Shown piece by piece: positions 4,260 to 44,821 of a DNA stretch of 44,821 bases; position 1 is the stretch's first letter, and every line of letters begins with the position of its first letter. This DNA is from Labilibaculum euxinicum. GTDB lineage: Bacteria > Bacteroidota > Bacteroidia > Bacteroidales > Marinifilaceae. The notes under the pieces were generated by a model. The model saw nothing but the letters and a program-made list of their open reading frames with translations, had not been told where the DNA came from and searched no databases. The translations under genes and the position numbers were made by a program. Location of the stretch: contig NZ_WTCR01000021.1 of assembly GCF_009795715.1 (NCBI RefSeq), positions 1 to 44,821 on the forward strand, in the 5' to 3' direction.

Positions 4260-4940
4260 ATGAAAAAATTGGTTGTGTTAAGTGGTGCCGGCATGAGTGC
4301 TGAAAGTGGTATCCAAACATTTCGTGACATGGGTGGTCTTTGGAACCAATACGATGTAATGGAAGTTGCCAGTCCGCATGCCTGGAAAAAAAATCCGCAT
4401 TTAGTGCATCAATTTTACAACGAGCGCCGTAAACAGTTATTTAATTGTTTTCCCAATAAGGGACATTTGCTTATTGCGGAACTTGAAAAACATTATGAGG
4501 TTGAAATTGTTACTCAGAATGTTGATGATTTGCATGAACGGGCTGGAAGTTCAAATGTATTACATCTTCACGGTGAGTTAAAGAAGGCTAGAAGTACAGC
4601 TGATCCTGAATTAATTTATGATCTGGATCATTGGGAACTAACTTTAAACGACACTTGTGAAAAAGGTTCACCATTGAGGCCTCATATTGTATGGTTTGGC
4701 GAAAGTGTTCCGGCAATTAGCGAAGCGGTGGCTATTGTTAGTAAAGCGGATGTTTTTGTGATTGTTGGAACGTCATTAAATGTGTATCCGGCAGCAGGTT
4801 TAATCGACTATATTCCAAATAAAACACCTGTTTATGTTATCGATCCTAATCAGCCATTAATGCAATCAAACAGAAATATTACTTATATTAGAGAAAAGGC
4901 GAGTGTTGGAATGGAAAAACTGTTCGAACTTCTTCATTAA
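4260..4940 (+). CDS. cobB: Sir2-family NAD-dependent protein deacylase
   Basis: Removes acyl groups from lysine side chains using NAD. The NAD-binding motif GAGMSAESGIQTFRD (residues 9-23), TQNVDD (85-90) and the catalytic histidine of LHG (H104) are present. Y53 and R56 form the YxxR pair that in class III sirtuins (SIRT5, bacterial CobB) reads negatively charged acyl groups such as succinyl-lysine. The small domain lacks the two CxxC zinc pairs: only one cysteine (C133) lies between residues 105 and 150. I believe such zinc-less forms are common in Bacteroidota. Length is 226 residues. A lipoprotein gene follows after 13 bases. Confidence 0.88.
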   Translation: MKKLVVLSGAGMSAESGIQTFRDMGGLWNQYDVMEVASPHAWKKNPHLVHQFYNERRKQLFNCFPNKGHLLIAELEKHYEVEIVTQNVDDLHERAGSSNVLHLHGELKKARSTADPELIYDLDHWELTLNDTCEKGSPLRPHIVWFGESVPAISEAVAIVSKADVFVIVGTSLNVYPAAGLIDYIPNKTPVYVIDPNQPLMQSNRNITYIREKASVGMEKLFELLH

Positions 4941-10156: not shown

Positions 10157-11611
10157 TTATAATTCTTTTCTCAATCTGGCCACAGGAATATTTAATTGTT
10201 CTCTGTATTTAGCTACAGTGCGCCTGGCTATCAGATACGATTTTTCCTTTAAAATAACCGCTAACTTATCATCAGTTAATGGCTTCTTCTTGTCCTCATT
10301 ATCAATGCACTCCTGCAATATTTTCTTTATTTCACGAGTCGACACCTCTTCTCCCGAATCGGTTTGCAAACCTTCTGAGAAGAAATACTTTAAGGAAAAA
10401 ATACCAAAATGAGTTTGTATGTATTTCGAATTTGATACCCGTGATATGGTTGAAATATCCAGCCCTGTTATTTCAGCAATATCTTTCAAAATCATTGGTC
10501 TGAGTTTACGTTCATCACCTTCCAGAAAATATTCCCGCTGAAAATCAATAATCGCGTTCATGCTTATCAACAATGTATTTTGTCTTTGTTTAATTGCATC
10601 AATAAACCATTTTGCAGAATCGAGCTTTTGCTTCACAAACATAACGGCGTCTTTATTCTCTCGTGACTGATTTTTCTTATTGCCGGAATAATCCTCTAGC
10701 ATCTCGGAATAAGCTCTGCTAATGTGCAGTTCGGGAACATTTCGTGAATTCAGGCTCAATAACAAATCGCCATCTTCCTCTTCCAATATAAAATCGGGAA
10801 TAATAGTAGGCGATGCTTTATCTAATGGGTTATTAAATGTGCTTCCCGGCTTTGGATTTAACTTTAAAATTTCGTCAACAGCACATTTAAAATCTTCATC
10901 GCTTGCGCCAACTCTCTTCTGAATTTTATCGTAGTGCTTTTTGGTAAACTCTTCAAAATTCTTTTTCAGAATCAGCTTAGCTAATTTTACATCTGGATTA
11001 AATTTCCCTTTGCGTTCAATCTGAAGAAGCAAGCACTCCTGTAAGTCGCGTGCACCAACTCCTGCCGGATCAAAATCCTGGATTACCCGTAACAATTCCA
11101 CTAATTCTTCATAAGAAGTTTCAACACCCATCGAAAAAGCCAAATCATCCACAATACTTTCAATCTCTCTTCGCAGGTATCCGTCTTCATCAATATTTCC
11201 AATCAGATATTCCGTTAAAGCATATTTTTCAGGAGTAAGAATGCGCAATCCCAATTGTGATATCAGCAATTCATGAAAAGTTGTTCCTCCCGAAAAAGGG
11301 ATTTCTTCGTGCTTGTCATCCTGCGAATAATTTTGTGCAGAAAGTTTATAAGATGGAGTATCTTCATCATTCATATAATCTTCCAAAGAAAATTCTTCCT
11401 GATCCTTATCTTTCTCGGGAGCTTCATCAGATTGATTATCATCTTGATAATCCTCTTCATTATTTCCTTCTTCCAGAACAGGATTCTCTTCCAACTCCTT
11501 TTTAATTCGCTCTTCAAGCTGCAAAGTTGGAAGCTCCAACAATTTTATCACCTGAATTTGCTGAGGCGATAATTTCTGTAATAACTTTTGCTGTAAACTT
11601 TGCTTTAGCAT
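10157..11611 (-). CDS. rpoN: RNA polymerase sigma-54 factor
   Basis: Alternative sigma factor that needs an ATP-using activator. Region I is the glutamine/leucine-rich N-terminus (MLKQSLQQKLLQKLSPQQ) that contacts activators. An acidic region II follows (residues about 50-90). The helix-turn-helix stretch TGLDISTISRVSNSKYIQ contacts DNA, and the diagnostic RpoN box ARRTVAKYRE is at about 462-471. The start at 11611 is chosen because region I begins there. An ATG 27 codons upstream (11692) would add an unrelated N-terminus. Length is 484 residues. It lies downstream of asnS but is separated from it by a terminator and 308 bases. Confidence 0.95.
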   Translation of the reverse strand: MLKQSLQQKLLQKLSPQQIQVIKLLELPTLQLEERIKKELEENPVLEEGNNEEDYQDDNQSDEAPEKDKDQEEFSLEDYMNDEDTPSYKLSAQNYSQDDKHEEIPFSGGTTFHELLISQLGLRILTPEKYALTEYLIGNIDEDGYLRREIESIVDDLAFSMGVETSYEELVELLRVIQDFDPAGVGARDLQECLLLQIERKGKFNPDVKLAKLILKKNFEEFTKKHYDKIQKRVGASDEDFKCAVDEILKLNPKPGSTFNNPLDKASPTIIPDFILEEEDGDLLLSLNSRNVPELHISRAYSEMLEDYSGNKKNQSRENKDAVMFVKQKLDSAKWFIDAIKQRQNTLLISMNAIIDFQREYFLEGDERKLRPMILKDIAEITGLDISTISRVSNSKYIQTHFGIFSLKYFFSEGLQTDSGEEVSTREIKKILQECIDNEDKKKPLTDDKLAVILKEKSYLIARRTVAKYREQLNIPVARLRKEL

Positions 11612-11919
11612 ACTGATTCCGTTCTTTTTTTTGAATGAAGCAAGGTACATATTCTCTTGTGAACTTACAAGAAGATCATCACTCAAGTACAATTTTCAAG
11701 CCATAAGTGGTAAGTATCAAAATCTTAAGCACAACAGGCATGCTCAAAAAGCTCAAAATAAGTAGCTTAGTTTATCGTTTTTTTTATAAATAATTCTGTC
11801 AGGCTTTGGCTTATCAGGATAAAACTCCAAATTTCAATTTCAACATTCATAATTTAGAGCACAAAAAAACCGTACTACATATGCAATACGGTTTTCAATA
11901 TCATTTGGTTTTTACCCTC
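11612..11919. other. Spacer between asnS and rpoN
   Basis: Holds the asnS terminator (11863-11895) and presumably the rpoN promoter, which I cannot place with confidence. No gene, RNA or repeat is recognisable. Confidence 0.5.
11863..11895 (-). terminator. Terminator of asnS
   Basis: On the minus strand AAACCGTATTGC pairs imperfectly with GTAGTACGGTTT, followed by a T run. It lies 25 bases past the asnS stop. Confidence 0.7.
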
Positions 11920-35907: not shown

Positions 35908-36470
35908 AGATCTATCTCAGCCCTACTCCTTCAAATCAAATCCATTTGAACCAATTACTGCAGAAATTCTTACAATTTAAAATTCGAATTGAACAATTGT
36001 TTGAGAAATAGTACCAAAACAATTTAAGAATTAAAGATCTGACTCTGTCCTTTCACTCAAACCAAATCTATTTGAACCAATTGCTGCAGAAATTCTTACA
36101 ATTTAAAATTCGAATTGAACAATTGTTTGAGAAATGGTATCAAAACAGTTTTAGAATCACAGACCTGACTCTGTCCTGTCACTCAAACCAAATCTGTTTG
36201 AACCAATTGCTGCAGAAATTCTTACAATTTAAAATTCGAATTGAACAATTGTTTGAGAAATGGTATCAAAACAGTTTTAGAATCACAGACCTGACTTTGT
36301 CCTGTCACTCAAACCAAATCTGTTTGAACCTATTGCTGCAGAAATTCTTACAATCTAAACTTAGAATTGAACAATTGTTTAAGAAATAGTACCAAAACAA
36401 TTTAAGAATTACAGACCTGACTCTGTCCTATCACTCAAACCAAATCTGTTTGAACCTATTGCTGCAGAAA
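35908..36470. repeat. Tandem array of a 126-bp repeat
   Basis: The PstI-like hexamer CTGCAG recurs at 35958, 36084, 36210, 36336 and 36462, exactly 126 bases apart. There are four full units, a decayed partial unit before and a short partial after. Units 2 and 3 differ at two positions only. The unit length is 42 codons, but units 1 and 4 have TAG where units 2 and 3 have TGG, so I do not call it a gene. The array ends at the rhodanese stop codon. Confidence 0.9.
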
Positions 36471-41207: not shown

Positions 41208-41515
41208 TTAGTATTTCACTGAAAATCAAATATGATAAAATTAACAATACCTGTTCATTTCCTGTTACTAGGTTTAATTTTAATTAAAAATCAATAAAAT
41301 ACGGAAACTCTTACCAACAGTATTAACAGGATATATTAATCATTATATTCTTTTAAGAAATTTTAAAAAATAAATAATAATATTAGACTTGTTGATAAGT
41401 GTTAATTGGGTTCTTTAAACTTGAAATATATTCAAATCATTAGTTCGATCAAATATCTGGTTTTTGTAATGATTTTATTATCTTGCATTGCATTGAAAAA
41501 TCCACGAAATACAAT

Positions 41516-41896
41516 ATGAGCTGGGAAACAAAAAACTATTCCATTTTATTAGTTGAGGATAATAAGTTAAATCAAACCGTTGTTAAATTTACTTTAAGAC
41601 GATATGGTTATTTAATTGATGTTGCCAATAACGGAATAGAGGCAATTGAGATGTTTAAACAAGGCAATTACGATTTTATTTTAATGGATATCATGATGCC
41701 TGAAATGGATGGATTAGATGCAACGAGAGCAATTCGAAATCTGGAGAATGGTCAGAAAATTCCAATTATAGCTTTAACTGCAGATATCATGATTGCCAAC
41801 GAAGAAAAATGTCTGAGAAATGGTATGAATGGTCATATCGCGAAACCTTTTGAAATTGATAATTTGTTTAAAGTGCTAAAAAGTTTAGATCTTTAA
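41516..41896 (+). CDS. Single-domain CheY-like response regulator
   Basis: A 126-residue receiver domain with no output domain. The acidic pair E14-D15, phosphorylated D58 in LMDIMMPEMDG, T in IIALTAD and K in IAKPF are all present. The ATG at 41516 (MSWETKN) is chosen over a TTG 33 bases upstream. Its closeness to receiver domains of hybrid kinases suggests that it takes phosphate from a separate kinase. The soluble kinase at 43452 is the nearest candidate. It lies alone, 137 bases before ruvB. Confidence 0.87.
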   Translation: MSWETKNYSILLVEDNKLNQTVVKFTLRRYGYLIDVANNGIEAIEMFKQGNYDFILMDIMMPEMDGLDATRAIRNLENGQKIPIIALTADIMIANEEKCLRNGMNGHIAKPFEIDNLFKVLKSLDL

Positions 41897-43399: not shown

Positions 43400-43435
43400 A
43401 AAAAAAGGAGCTTGTGACCAGCAAGCTCCTTTCTA
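43400..43435. terminator. Bidirectional terminator
   Basis: AAGGAGCTTG-N7-CAAGCTCCTT: a perfect 10-bp stem with an A run on the left and T-rich sequence on the right. It serves the ruvB unit and the converging kinase gene. Confidence 0.8.
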
Positions 43436-43451
43436 TTACCTAGTAATTTTC

Positions 43452-44315
43452 CTAAATAGCAATATTCTTTTTAATAGTAGATAAAGAATATATATCGTTA
43501 ATATTAAGCTTTAAAATAGCTTCAATTTTTTCTTTTAAAATGATGTTCGATTCTGAATATTTTAGAGGAATTGTAAAATAAAAAATGGAACCTTGTCCGA
43601 GGTGTGAATCTATAAATAATTTACCACCCAAAAAGTTTACAATTTCTTTGCATAAACTCAAACCTAATCCGGCACCTGAATAAATTCTTGTGTACGAATT
43701 ATCCACTTGCGTGAATTTTTTAAATATTTGTTCTTGTTCGTTTTTGTTAATTCCGGGACCAGTATCTTTTACGTAAAAAAGAATATTATTTCTATCCTGA
43801 ATTGCGCAACCAAAATCAATTTCTCCTTTTTCAGTAAATTTCACTGCGTTTTCTAGAAGATAGGATAGAACCTTTGTTAATTTGTCAAGATCCGTGAATA
43901 TTTTAATTTCTTGAAGATCTTCAGTAAAATTTAGAATTAAATTTTTCTGAGAATCATTAATATTCTGTTCGAATATAGAATACAATTGGATAAATAAAGT
44001 GTGAACTGATATTTCCGATTCGTGGAAATTCATAGAACCACTTTCTAATTGGGAAAGTTCAAGTATTCTATTAAATAAATCCAACAATTCTTTACTGCTG
44101 GTATTAAGAATGTTAGTAAATTCATTTCGCTCTATTTTTGAAAGAGAATCATCACGTAATAATTCTGAAGCACCAATAATAGCATTCATTGGCGTTCGAA
44201 TTTCATGTGACATATTTGCAAGAAAAGAATTTTTAAGCACTTCTGCCTTGGCAGTTTTAGCTTTTTCTTCTTTTAGTAATTGCTCCAGTTCTTTATATGT
44301 AGGACGTCTCTCCAT
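43452..44315 (-). CDS. Soluble histidine kinase without sensor domain
   Basis: A 287-residue cytoplasmic kinase with no membrane span. A short N-terminal coiled coil (about 5-30) leads to the H-box with H37 in NMSHEIRTPMNAIIGASELL. The ATPase domain has LLENAVKFT, KDTGPGIN, FKKFTQVD and GAGLGLSLCKEI. It looks like the core of a hybrid kinase without sensor or receiver, matching the lone receiver at 41516. It is directly downstream of the GG-leader peptide genes on the same strand (119-base gap), so it may belong to that locus. Confidence 0.87.
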   Translation of the reverse strand: MERRPTYKELEQLLKEEKAKTAKAEVLKNSFLANMSHEIRTPMNAIIGASELLRDDSLSKIERNEFTNILNTSSKELLDLFNRILELSQLESGSMNFHESEISVHTLFIQLYSIFEQNINDSQKNLILNFTEDLQEIKIFTDLDKLTKVLSYLLENAVKFTEKGEIDFGCAIQDRNNILFYVKDTGPGINKNEQEQIFKKFTQVDNSYTRIYSGAGLGLSLCKEIVNFLGGKLFIDSHLGQGSIFYFTIPLKYSESNIILKEKIEAILKLNINDIYSLSTIKKNIAI

Positions 44316-44434: not shown

Positions 44435-44536
44435 TTAAACAATGCAATCATCACAAATACATATATCTGTCATTTCGTTTACACCACCTTTAATTAAGTG
44501 TAATTCTTTTGTGGATACTTCTTCAAAATTATTCAT
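44435..44536 (-). CDS. GG-leader RiPP-type precursor peptide A
   Basis: A 33-codon gene. The leader MNNFEEVSTKELHLIKGG (18 residues) ends in the double-glycine site that is cut during export by peptidase-containing ABC transporters. The predicted core is VNEMTDICICDDCIV, with three cysteines. Its neighbours at 44596 and 44765 share leader and core patterns, which a chance open frame would not. This format resembles the GG-leader precursor families of Bacteroidales natural-product loci, which are often modified by radical SAM enzymes. The modification here is unknown. Confidence 0.8.
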   Translation of the reverse strand: MNNFEEVSTKELHLIKGGVNEMTDICICDDCIV

Positions 44537-44544
44537 GGGCTCAG

Positions 44545-44576
44545 TAAATATAATTTATTCAAACTACTTTGTCAAT
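44545..44576 (-). promoter_or_regulatory. Candidate promoter of peptide A
   Basis: On the minus strand ATTG (44573-44576), exactly 20 bases, then TATATTTA (44545-44552), each one mismatch from consensus. The leader would be only a few bases. Confidence 0.35.
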
Positions 44577-44595
44577 ATTTTGAAGAGATACTTAT

Positions 44596-44697
44596 TTACA
44601 CGATACAATCGTCACAAATACTAACATCAGTCATTTCGTTGATACCACCTTTGATGTTTTGTAATTCTTCCTGAGATACTATTTCAAAATTTTTCAT
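44596..44697 (-). CDS. GG-leader RiPP-type precursor peptide B
   Basis: A 33-codon gene, paralogue of A. Leader MKNFEIVSQEELQNIKGG, core INEMTDVSICDDCIV with two cysteines. Compared with A the first core cysteine of CxC is serine (VSIC for ICIC). The last 19 codons and stop are base-identical to copy C. The spacing to A is 59 bases. Confidence 0.8.
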   Translation of the reverse strand: MKNFEIVSQEELQNIKGGINEMTDVSICDDCIV

Positions 44698-44764
44698 TGC
44701 TGTTTGGTTTTATTGGTCAATACTAGGTTTACTATAGGAAATTTGGATTTGGTCAATTGGGTAC

Positions 44765-44821
44765 TTACACGATACAATCGTCACAAATACTAACATCAGT
44801 CATTTCGTTGATACCACCTTT
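44765..44821 (-). CDS. GG-leader RiPP-type precursor peptide C (cut by window end)
   Basis: Only the last 18 codons and stop are inside the window: KGG followed by the core INEMTDVSICDDCIV. All 57 bases are identical to the matching part of B, so it is a recent copy. The start codon lies beyond the right edge. Confidence 0.75.
   Translation of the reverse strand, partial: KGGINEMTDVSICDDCIV

Follow-up and report, generated by a model that had tools for sequence, protein, structure and literature searches.

The window, meaning the whole stretch of DNA analyzed, is the 44,821-bp contig C13 of the Labilibaculum euxinicum genome (G000), and the contig end falls inside a minus-strand tandem array of short peptide genes. 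Two array copies of 33 codons each are complete in it: copy 1, on the side of a kinase gene (44435..44536, minus strand), encodes a 33-aa peptide with a divergent leader, MNNFEEVSTKELHLIKGG, and the core VNEMTDICICDDCIV, and copy 2 (44596..44697, minus strand) a 33-aa peptide with the main-type leader, MKNFEIVSQEELQNIKGG, and the core INEMTDVSICDDCIV. The initial annotation had described three 33-codon genes; this stands for the two complete copies, while the third (44765..44821, minus strand) consists only of its last 18 codons, from K16 of the KGG motif, and a stop codon, its leader being absent from the window because the gene is cut by the contig end. Three further copies, with the same protein as copy 2 and a repeat unit of 169 bp, lie within the first 510 bases of contig C39 (positions 71-510), followed by a divergent 949-aa gene. 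Since peptide matches in this genome occur on these two contigs only and the order of kinase, array and TPR-CHAT genes is unbroken in relatives, we infer that a single array spans the break between C13 and C39. Its copy number is at least five, plus the partial copy.

The kinase gene (43452..44315, minus strand) lies 119 nt 3' of the last array copy on the same strand and encodes a soluble histidine kinase of 287 aa with HisKA and HATPase_c domains and no membrane segment. A scan by consensus only placed a terminator-like hairpin with a T run just 3' of this gene (43402..43434, minus strand) and found no terminator between array and kinase gene in the window. Two genes separate the kinase gene from that of a receiver-like protein, labeled as such by eye, at 41483-41896. 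Just upstream of the kinase-side copy, positions 44547-44575 (minus strand) match TTGACA-17-TATATT (11/12), a consensus that is not that of Bacteroidota; from this match, the kinase-side copy and the kinase gene may have a promoter of their own.

Across 79 copies from 18 genomes, which comprised 32 unique cores, the precursors consist of an M..FE...GG leader (18 residues in the window) and a core of 15 residues (20 cores) or 12 residues (12 cores), the array genes of relatives having 33 or 30 codons. All 32 cores are acidic, with a net charge of -5 to -2, and share the C-terminal tail [DE][DE].[IL]V, the final V being forced by the search pattern. Cysteine is absent from 9/32 unique cores; cysteine chemistry, whether disulfide, sactionine or metal-binding, was therefore rejected as a family trait, which weakens the initial annotation's view that the closely spaced acids and cysteines suit a radical SAM, disulfide or metal-binding product. 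The proposed KGG leader fared better: against the leader model TIGR01847 (cut-off 15.7), copy 2 scored 18.7 and copy 1 15.7, which places the window peptides among those matched by a GG signal model. When the whole genome was scanned with this model in six frames, four matches exceeded the cut-off, all of them array copies, with copy 1 falling below it at 14.2. Copy 1 also scored 20.3 against PF03047 (cut-off 20.4), and copy 2 scored 18.9 against the Chryseobacterium leader model NF047798, under its cut-off of 23.5. Searched against Pfam, the two window peptides matched nothing at cut-off and, against NCBIfam, the generic leader domain only.

The array frame is translated, as differences between genomes among the main copies concentrate on the third codon position (5074, 4699 and 10936 at positions 1, 2 and 3). 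Between genomes, pN/pS for the main copies was 0.18 in the leader and 0.40 in the core, which is the faster-evolving part of the precursor. The kinase-side copy has a quite different leader in 13/18 genomes compared. Its core differed from those of its own array with pS 0.830 and pN 0.082, and from those of other genomes' arrays of equal core length with pS 0.859 and pN 0.234, while its leader had no such difference (pN 0.305 vs 0.316). By best match, the kinase-side copy was closest to its own array in 6/13 genomes, with five ties and two genomes in which the own array was beaten, these genomes not being independent of one another. Because synonymous sites are saturated in both comparisons, DNA homogenization does not explain the likeness of the cores, and gene conversion was rejected. 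A cognate partner common to the array paralogues would explain it; similar cores in divergent paralogues, despite saturated synonymous sites, are a pheromone-like trait.

We surveyed linkage in 59 genomes, our own included, 15 of which carry the array. In relatives from Labilibaculum, Marinifilum and Ancylomarina, the array sits between a divergent gene for a TPR-CHAT protease, which has a caspase fold, and a soluble histidine kinase gene. Homologues in the relatives keep both leader and GG, in agreement with the initial annotation, which had looked to related genomes for such conservation. A scan of named genomes returned 17 loci, all in Labilibaculum, Marinifilum, Ancylomarina or a Marinifilaceae MAG, with 94% identity for the closest match to a window peptide, and when 344 genomes of the order were searched with a profile, three matched, namely our genome and two with leader-only matches. 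TPR-CHAT at a minimum of 48% identity is present in exactly the 15 array genomes. The kinase ortholog (E <= 1e-60) occurs in 14/59 genomes, all with the array, and the array of the one array genome without it sits at a contig end; G016 has a second kinase match at 45%. TPR-CHAT homologues at E <= 1e-100 are found in 23/59 genomes and sigma homologues (E <= 1e-30) in 21/59, all 21 of which also have a TPR-CHAT homologue. The trio of TPR-CHAT, array and kinase genes stays together despite rearrangement on one side: at L036/L040, the TPR-CHAT gene adjoins a homologue of window 10157-11692, the product of which we take to be RpoN, and at L037/L041, the kinase gene adjoins a homologue of window 4260-4940, presumably encoding Sir2. 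Array and TPR-CHAT gene are ~38 kb or more away from the sigma gene in G017 and G028. In G007 (L030:5527-9367, array on a 4.97-Mb contig), the array is intact and the TPR-CHAT frame is broken; the anti-sigma frame is likewise interrupted, and the two interruptions would reflect either decay of the genes or errors in sequencing.

Outside the array genomes, TPR-CHAT genes lie near sigma/anti-sigma homologues in 6/9 loci examined (L076, L078, L080, L081, L083 and L085) and away from them at L074, L079 and L082; in G056, the TPR-CHAT gene also adjoins a C39-ABC exporter gene. The pattern used detected no convincing GG peptide at TPR-CHAT loci of other families. G019 has no match to the window peptide; at its locus L074:11233-12169, two GG-leader peptides of 51-54 aa flank a 40%-identical TPR-CHAT gene. 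These have a common leader and an acidic ...EEDILFD end and are unlike the array peptides, with a similarly acidic C terminus; the one peptide tested scored 17.4 against TIGR01847 (cut-off 15.7). They are perhaps a second kind of TPR-CHAT partner peptide. In other families, C39-ABC exporter genes were also seen with a sigma homologue no more than 1 kb upstream of them (G041:C72:10923-14438 and G048:C140:9329-13054).

The CHAT domain of the TPR-CHAT protein is a PF12770 match, and its TPRs (residues 50-332) form confident helices in the AlphaFold model of the K2S protein. The expected catalytic His and Cys are present in 19/19 sequences. Given a C-terminal membrane anchor, spanning in 19/19, and an N-terminal hydrophobic signal, above threshold in 11/19, the protein is probably periplasmic. 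Within Labilibaculum, the TPR half (41-320) has 54-73% identity in 40-residue windows, compared with 90% in the CHAT window that contains the catalytic His and 94-99% in residues 801-880, which contain the Cys. Fold matches concern the TPRs only, because the CHAT part of the AlphaFold model is poor (mean pLDDT 60.6) and the TPR part confident; after designed TPR proteins, the latter is closest to the TPRs of LGN and kinesin light chain, several of them peptide-bound, a model-based likeness that may serve as a lead for peptide binding and not as a test of it. Helix A, which lines the usual groove, was less variable than helix B (0.260 vs 0.349), and the receptor groove as the seat of specificity was thus not supported. 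Cores co-diverge with TPRs at a partial r of 0.43 given CHAT (permutation P 0.025, 49 pairs), a weak, post hoc result, compared with 0.12 for cores and the middle region, 0.25 for cores and kinase given CHAT and 0.05 for leaders and TPRs.

Beside the TPR-CHAT gene lies a gene for an ECF sigma factor (TIGR02937 58.0, cut-off 42.9). The product of its neighbor has one membrane span, weak TPR matches and no family match; by its place and topology we take it to be an anti-sigma factor, which gives an ECF sigma factor with an adjacent membrane-spanning partner. Among five proteins searched with a defense-system library, the kinase matched PDC-M43B once, and the sole further result was a generic TPR model. 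RRNPP systems combine a cytosolic TPR receptor with a precursor that lacks a GG leader, whereas here the TPR protein spans the membrane and the precursor has a GG leader.

Upstream of both the array and the ECF sigma gene, we found a bipartite, promoter-like element, GGGTTACCTTTT-N10-GGAATAAAGGG. With up to three mismatches allowed, it occurs at 95 sites in 18 of the 59 genomes, compared with one site for the reversed pattern, and precedes the array in 15/15 and the sigma gene in 15/15 array genomes. The 14-base left half-site alone was not enriched in our genome (five matches vs 11 in the control). We examined 64 of the 65 other sites: 10 precede C25-type genes, 14 an HTH gene and 11 a lipoprotein family, some of whose genes lie up to 1.5 kb downstream of the element, and 29 have no assigned gene class, five of them truncated by contig ends. 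The C25-type assignment rests on Pfam in our genome (PF01364 plus a T9SS tail) and on similarity in the others, one of which is shorter and 33% identical. Nine of the 14 HTH sites are followed by GG-peptide, LanB/LanC, radical SAM or C39-ABC genes (L091, L135, L137, L148, L151, L152, L169, L179 and L182); L142 and L143, initially counted with these, were removed (11 to nine), since nothing but an ABC ATPase matched at the former and nothing but a LanB-like piece of 55 residues at the latter. Before the linked exporter operon, the element is present in 3/15 array genomes (G002, G003 and G005), each time with three mismatches; it was not found there within three mismatches in the other 12, or within six in our own genome.

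The element would be an autoregulated promoter read by this sigma factor. Since the C25 genes and the array are preceded by the same element, their co-regulation is suggested. The shared element and the gene linkage are shown by sequence, and signaling and proteolysis are inferred. In nine genomes, the start of a gingipain-like C25 protein of 982/983 aa lies 138-142 nt downstream of the point where the element begins (L129:931-3876, minus strand, with a T9SS tail found; L132, L138, L139, L145, L146, L160, L164 and L175). At L144:6113-9490 (minus strand), tandem lipoprotein-like genes (MKLNFKKA.../MKLIFKKA..., with a KTGGDEF stretch) each have an element of their own.

A C39-peptidase ABC exporter, which the initial annotation had expected past the window end, was found there together with HlyD, ~13.5 kb from the nearest copy, and, with the leader model match, supports the reading of the peptides as export-type double-glycine precursors. 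PF03412 matched our genome three times, strongly at 115.1 bits (on the other flank of the array) and at 110 bits, and weakly at 23.8. Orthologs of the exporter at 83% identity or more are encoded in all 15 array genomes and one draft of the same genus, the matches in G016 and G024 containing stops; the exporter lies on the array-carrying contig, by arithmetic 11.6 to 46 kb from the copies. The notion that the linked exporter is the sole C39 exporter was dropped, as a second is present in G000 and others in G014.

For the modifying enzymes that had likewise been placed past base 44821, the outcome was different. The relatives' LanB, LanC and radical SAM maturases had no match in the window or in C39:1-20000, and the only C...C..C frame in the window and the first 20 kb past the break lies in the window and is, we presume, HemW-like. 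A LanB family search of our genome was empty, as were its controls. With no modifying enzyme found in the stretch covered by these searches and no conserved cysteine in the cores, the natural-product reading fails: the array is most likely not the start of a natural-product locus and belongs with the protease, kinase and sigma factor. Upstream of the array-linked C39 exporter, G003 has an operon with HTH, class I lanthipeptide precursor (NF038153 29.8, cut-off 22), LanC and LanB genes, and G002 and G005 have comparable operons. The slot in this position resembles a cassette site (L089:7599-15341 and L091:9659-17505), occupied by class I lanthipeptide genes in G003, by LanB/LanC in G002, by genes for a radical SAM protein, a 48-aa GG peptide and an outer-membrane protein in G005 and by an S41 peptidase gene in our genome.

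We propose, with a confidence a little short of even, that the array encodes the exported signaling peptides of a peptide-protease-sigma circuit, the confidence being that in the circuit as a whole and in outline; that the peptide is a signal at all, we regard as evenly balanced. Very probably, the 33- or 30-aa precursors are cut after GG and the acidic 12-15-mers are exported by the linked C39-peptidase ABC exporter/HlyD. It is also likely, if somewhat less so, that the adjacent ECF sigma factor transcribes the array through GGGTTACCTTTT-N10-GGAATAAAGGG, which precedes the sigma gene itself, the C25 protease gene and other GG-peptide/C39 loci as well. The following steps are tentative. The divergently encoded, probably periplasmic TPR-CHAT protein would be the peptide receptor, a role suggested by strict linkage and the faster evolution of the TPRs; peptide binding, probably through the [DE][DE]x[IL]V motif at the C terminus, would activate CHAT, and its cleavage of the single-span anti-sigma factor would release the sigma factor, the resulting positive feedback amounting to quorum sensing. 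A second output would come from the soluble kinase, whose gene is probably co-transcribed with the array. As a design new to Bacteroidota quorum sensing, in which a peptide tail activates TPR-CHAT and frees a sigma factor for a regulon of array, C25 and bacteriocin-type genes including exporters, the proposal is speculative and more doubtful than not. Several findings count against the circuit: the kinase has no place in the proposed loop, the array of G007 persists with a broken TPR-CHAT gene and the element precedes the exporter in only 3/15 array genomes. Also unfavorable are the location of TPR variability outside the usual groove, the weak core-TPR co-divergence, the own array being the best match of the kinase-side copy in only 6/13 genomes, the distance of the sigma gene in G017 and G028, the TPR-CHAT loci of other families without a convincing GG peptide and, for the element, the 29 unassigned sites and the unenriched left half-site.

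Other explanations were weighed against this circuit. The peptides might be pheromones of a ComC/ComD-like system, sensed by the adjacent kinase after uptake or via another sensor, with TPR-CHAT merely co-regulated. This unlikely reading would account for the position of the kinase gene, which follows the array on its strand wherever a locus contains both and is separated from it by no terminator detected in the window, for the strict co-occurrence of kinase and array and for the gene of the receiver-like protein labeled by eye. ComC/ComD-type loci, however, have a membrane histidine kinase beside the peptide gene. None of the 17 kinases examined here has a clear membrane segment, their highest hydropathy over 19 residues being 0.85-1.61, and acting as a receptor in the manner of ComD is therefore not the obvious role for them; in addition, the first 120 columns of the kinases are well conserved, unlike those expected of a receptor for species-specific cores. 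That the peptides are short acidic bacteriocins or public-good peptides, acting as sigma-regulon effectors alongside the C25 protease and lanthipeptide loci, we consider unlikely. They share the promoter-like element with lanthipeptide and C39 loci and their leader fits a bacteriocin signal model, but the cores are negatively charged throughout, no immunity gene was recognized in the trio and a toxin would explain the within-genome core likeness of old paralogues less well than a cognate receptor.

Strict linkage to TPR-CHAT and a tail common to all 32 cores would also suit peptides that serve as CHAT substrates, pseudosubstrates or inhibitors, with the acidic tail as the recognition site and no cell-to-cell signaling. 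In that case, the GG leader and exporter would be needed solely for reaching the periplasm and an inhibitor would have no need of species-specific cores, which makes this unlikely. Very improbable is the assignment to radical SAM, disulfide or metal-binding RiPP precursors with their enzymes past base 44821: the GG leader and the C39 exporter ~13.5 kb away are compatible with it, as is the same element preceding LanB/LanC in G003, G002 and G016 and a radical SAM gene in G005, yet the operons of G003, G005 and G016 carry GG peptides of their own, our genome has no such enzyme within 20 kb beyond the break and the cores without Cys weaken it further. The near-identity of the 169-bp units might hint at repeated regulatory DNA or RNA with incidental frames, a chance we rate as next to negligible. 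It is refuted by the codon pattern, with its third-position excess and low pN/pS; moreover, divergent copies keep a recognizable leader, and Rfam gave no match at gathering score for the three copies on C39, just a tRNA further on.

Streptococcal ComC and BlpC are double-glycine pheromones (PF03047 and TIGR01847). The exported signaling peptides proposed here resemble them in the short precursor, GG leader, C39-ABC export, short species-specific core and adjoining kinase gene, and differ in that the array is tandem and multicopy, the host Gram-negative and the kinase soluble, with a linked TPR-CHAT gene and ECF sigma element. Bacteroidota GG-leader RiPPs (NF038153 lanthipeptides, TIGR04149 rSAM peptides and NF047798) have the leader type and C39-ABC exporter in common with the array, and some lie behind the same element in relatives; unlike these, the array has no conserved Cys, and no modifying enzyme was found near it. 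As for the protease, excerpts of one source describe DegS as a membrane-anchored periplasmic protease that is activated by C-terminal peptides and cuts the anti-sigma factor RseA (PMC8103513). The locus parallels DegS-RseA-RpoE in having a membrane-anchored, probably periplasmic protease, a putative membrane anti-sigma factor and a presumably autoregulating ECF sigma factor, and here too the activating ligand would be a peptide C terminus; the ligand would, however, be a dedicated exported peptide, the protease is TPR-CHAT and not PDZ, and the cleavage is predicted. The TPR-CHAT protease Csx29 cleaves a sigma-factor inhibitor, according to excerpts of another source (PMC10028731). As in Csx29/Csx30/CASP-sigma of type III-E CRISPR, TPR-CHAT would control a sigma factor through its inhibitor, although that system is an RNA-triggered CRISPR one, whereas the TPR-CHAT protein here has a signal and C-terminal anchor and no CRISPR effector was noticed among the neighbors. 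These Csx29 and DegS precedents make the last steps of the circuit plausible. The word CHAT is absent from PMC10352776, PMC8939145 and PMC9765461.

Among the matches listed in open-licence full-text literature, none has such an array/TPR-CHAT/sigma architecture. What is new is that in 15/15 array genomes, a bipartite, putatively regulatory element stands before both the array and the neighboring ECF sigma gene. To our knowledge, the trigger of TPR-CHAT genes beside ECF sigma/anti-sigma pairs has not been described; the array locus offers a candidate in the form of a defined, synthesizable peptide, testable on culturable marine species. If true, the circuit would connect peptide communication and sigma control with the bacterial relatives of caspases and provide a handle on when lanthipeptides and T9SS proteases get switched on. 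Elsewhere in the window, a plus-strand reading frame at 36072-36389 is built of direct repeats (NQLLQKFLQFKIRIEQLFEKWYQNSFRITDLTLSCHSNQICL) and is perhaps a noncoding tandem repeat.
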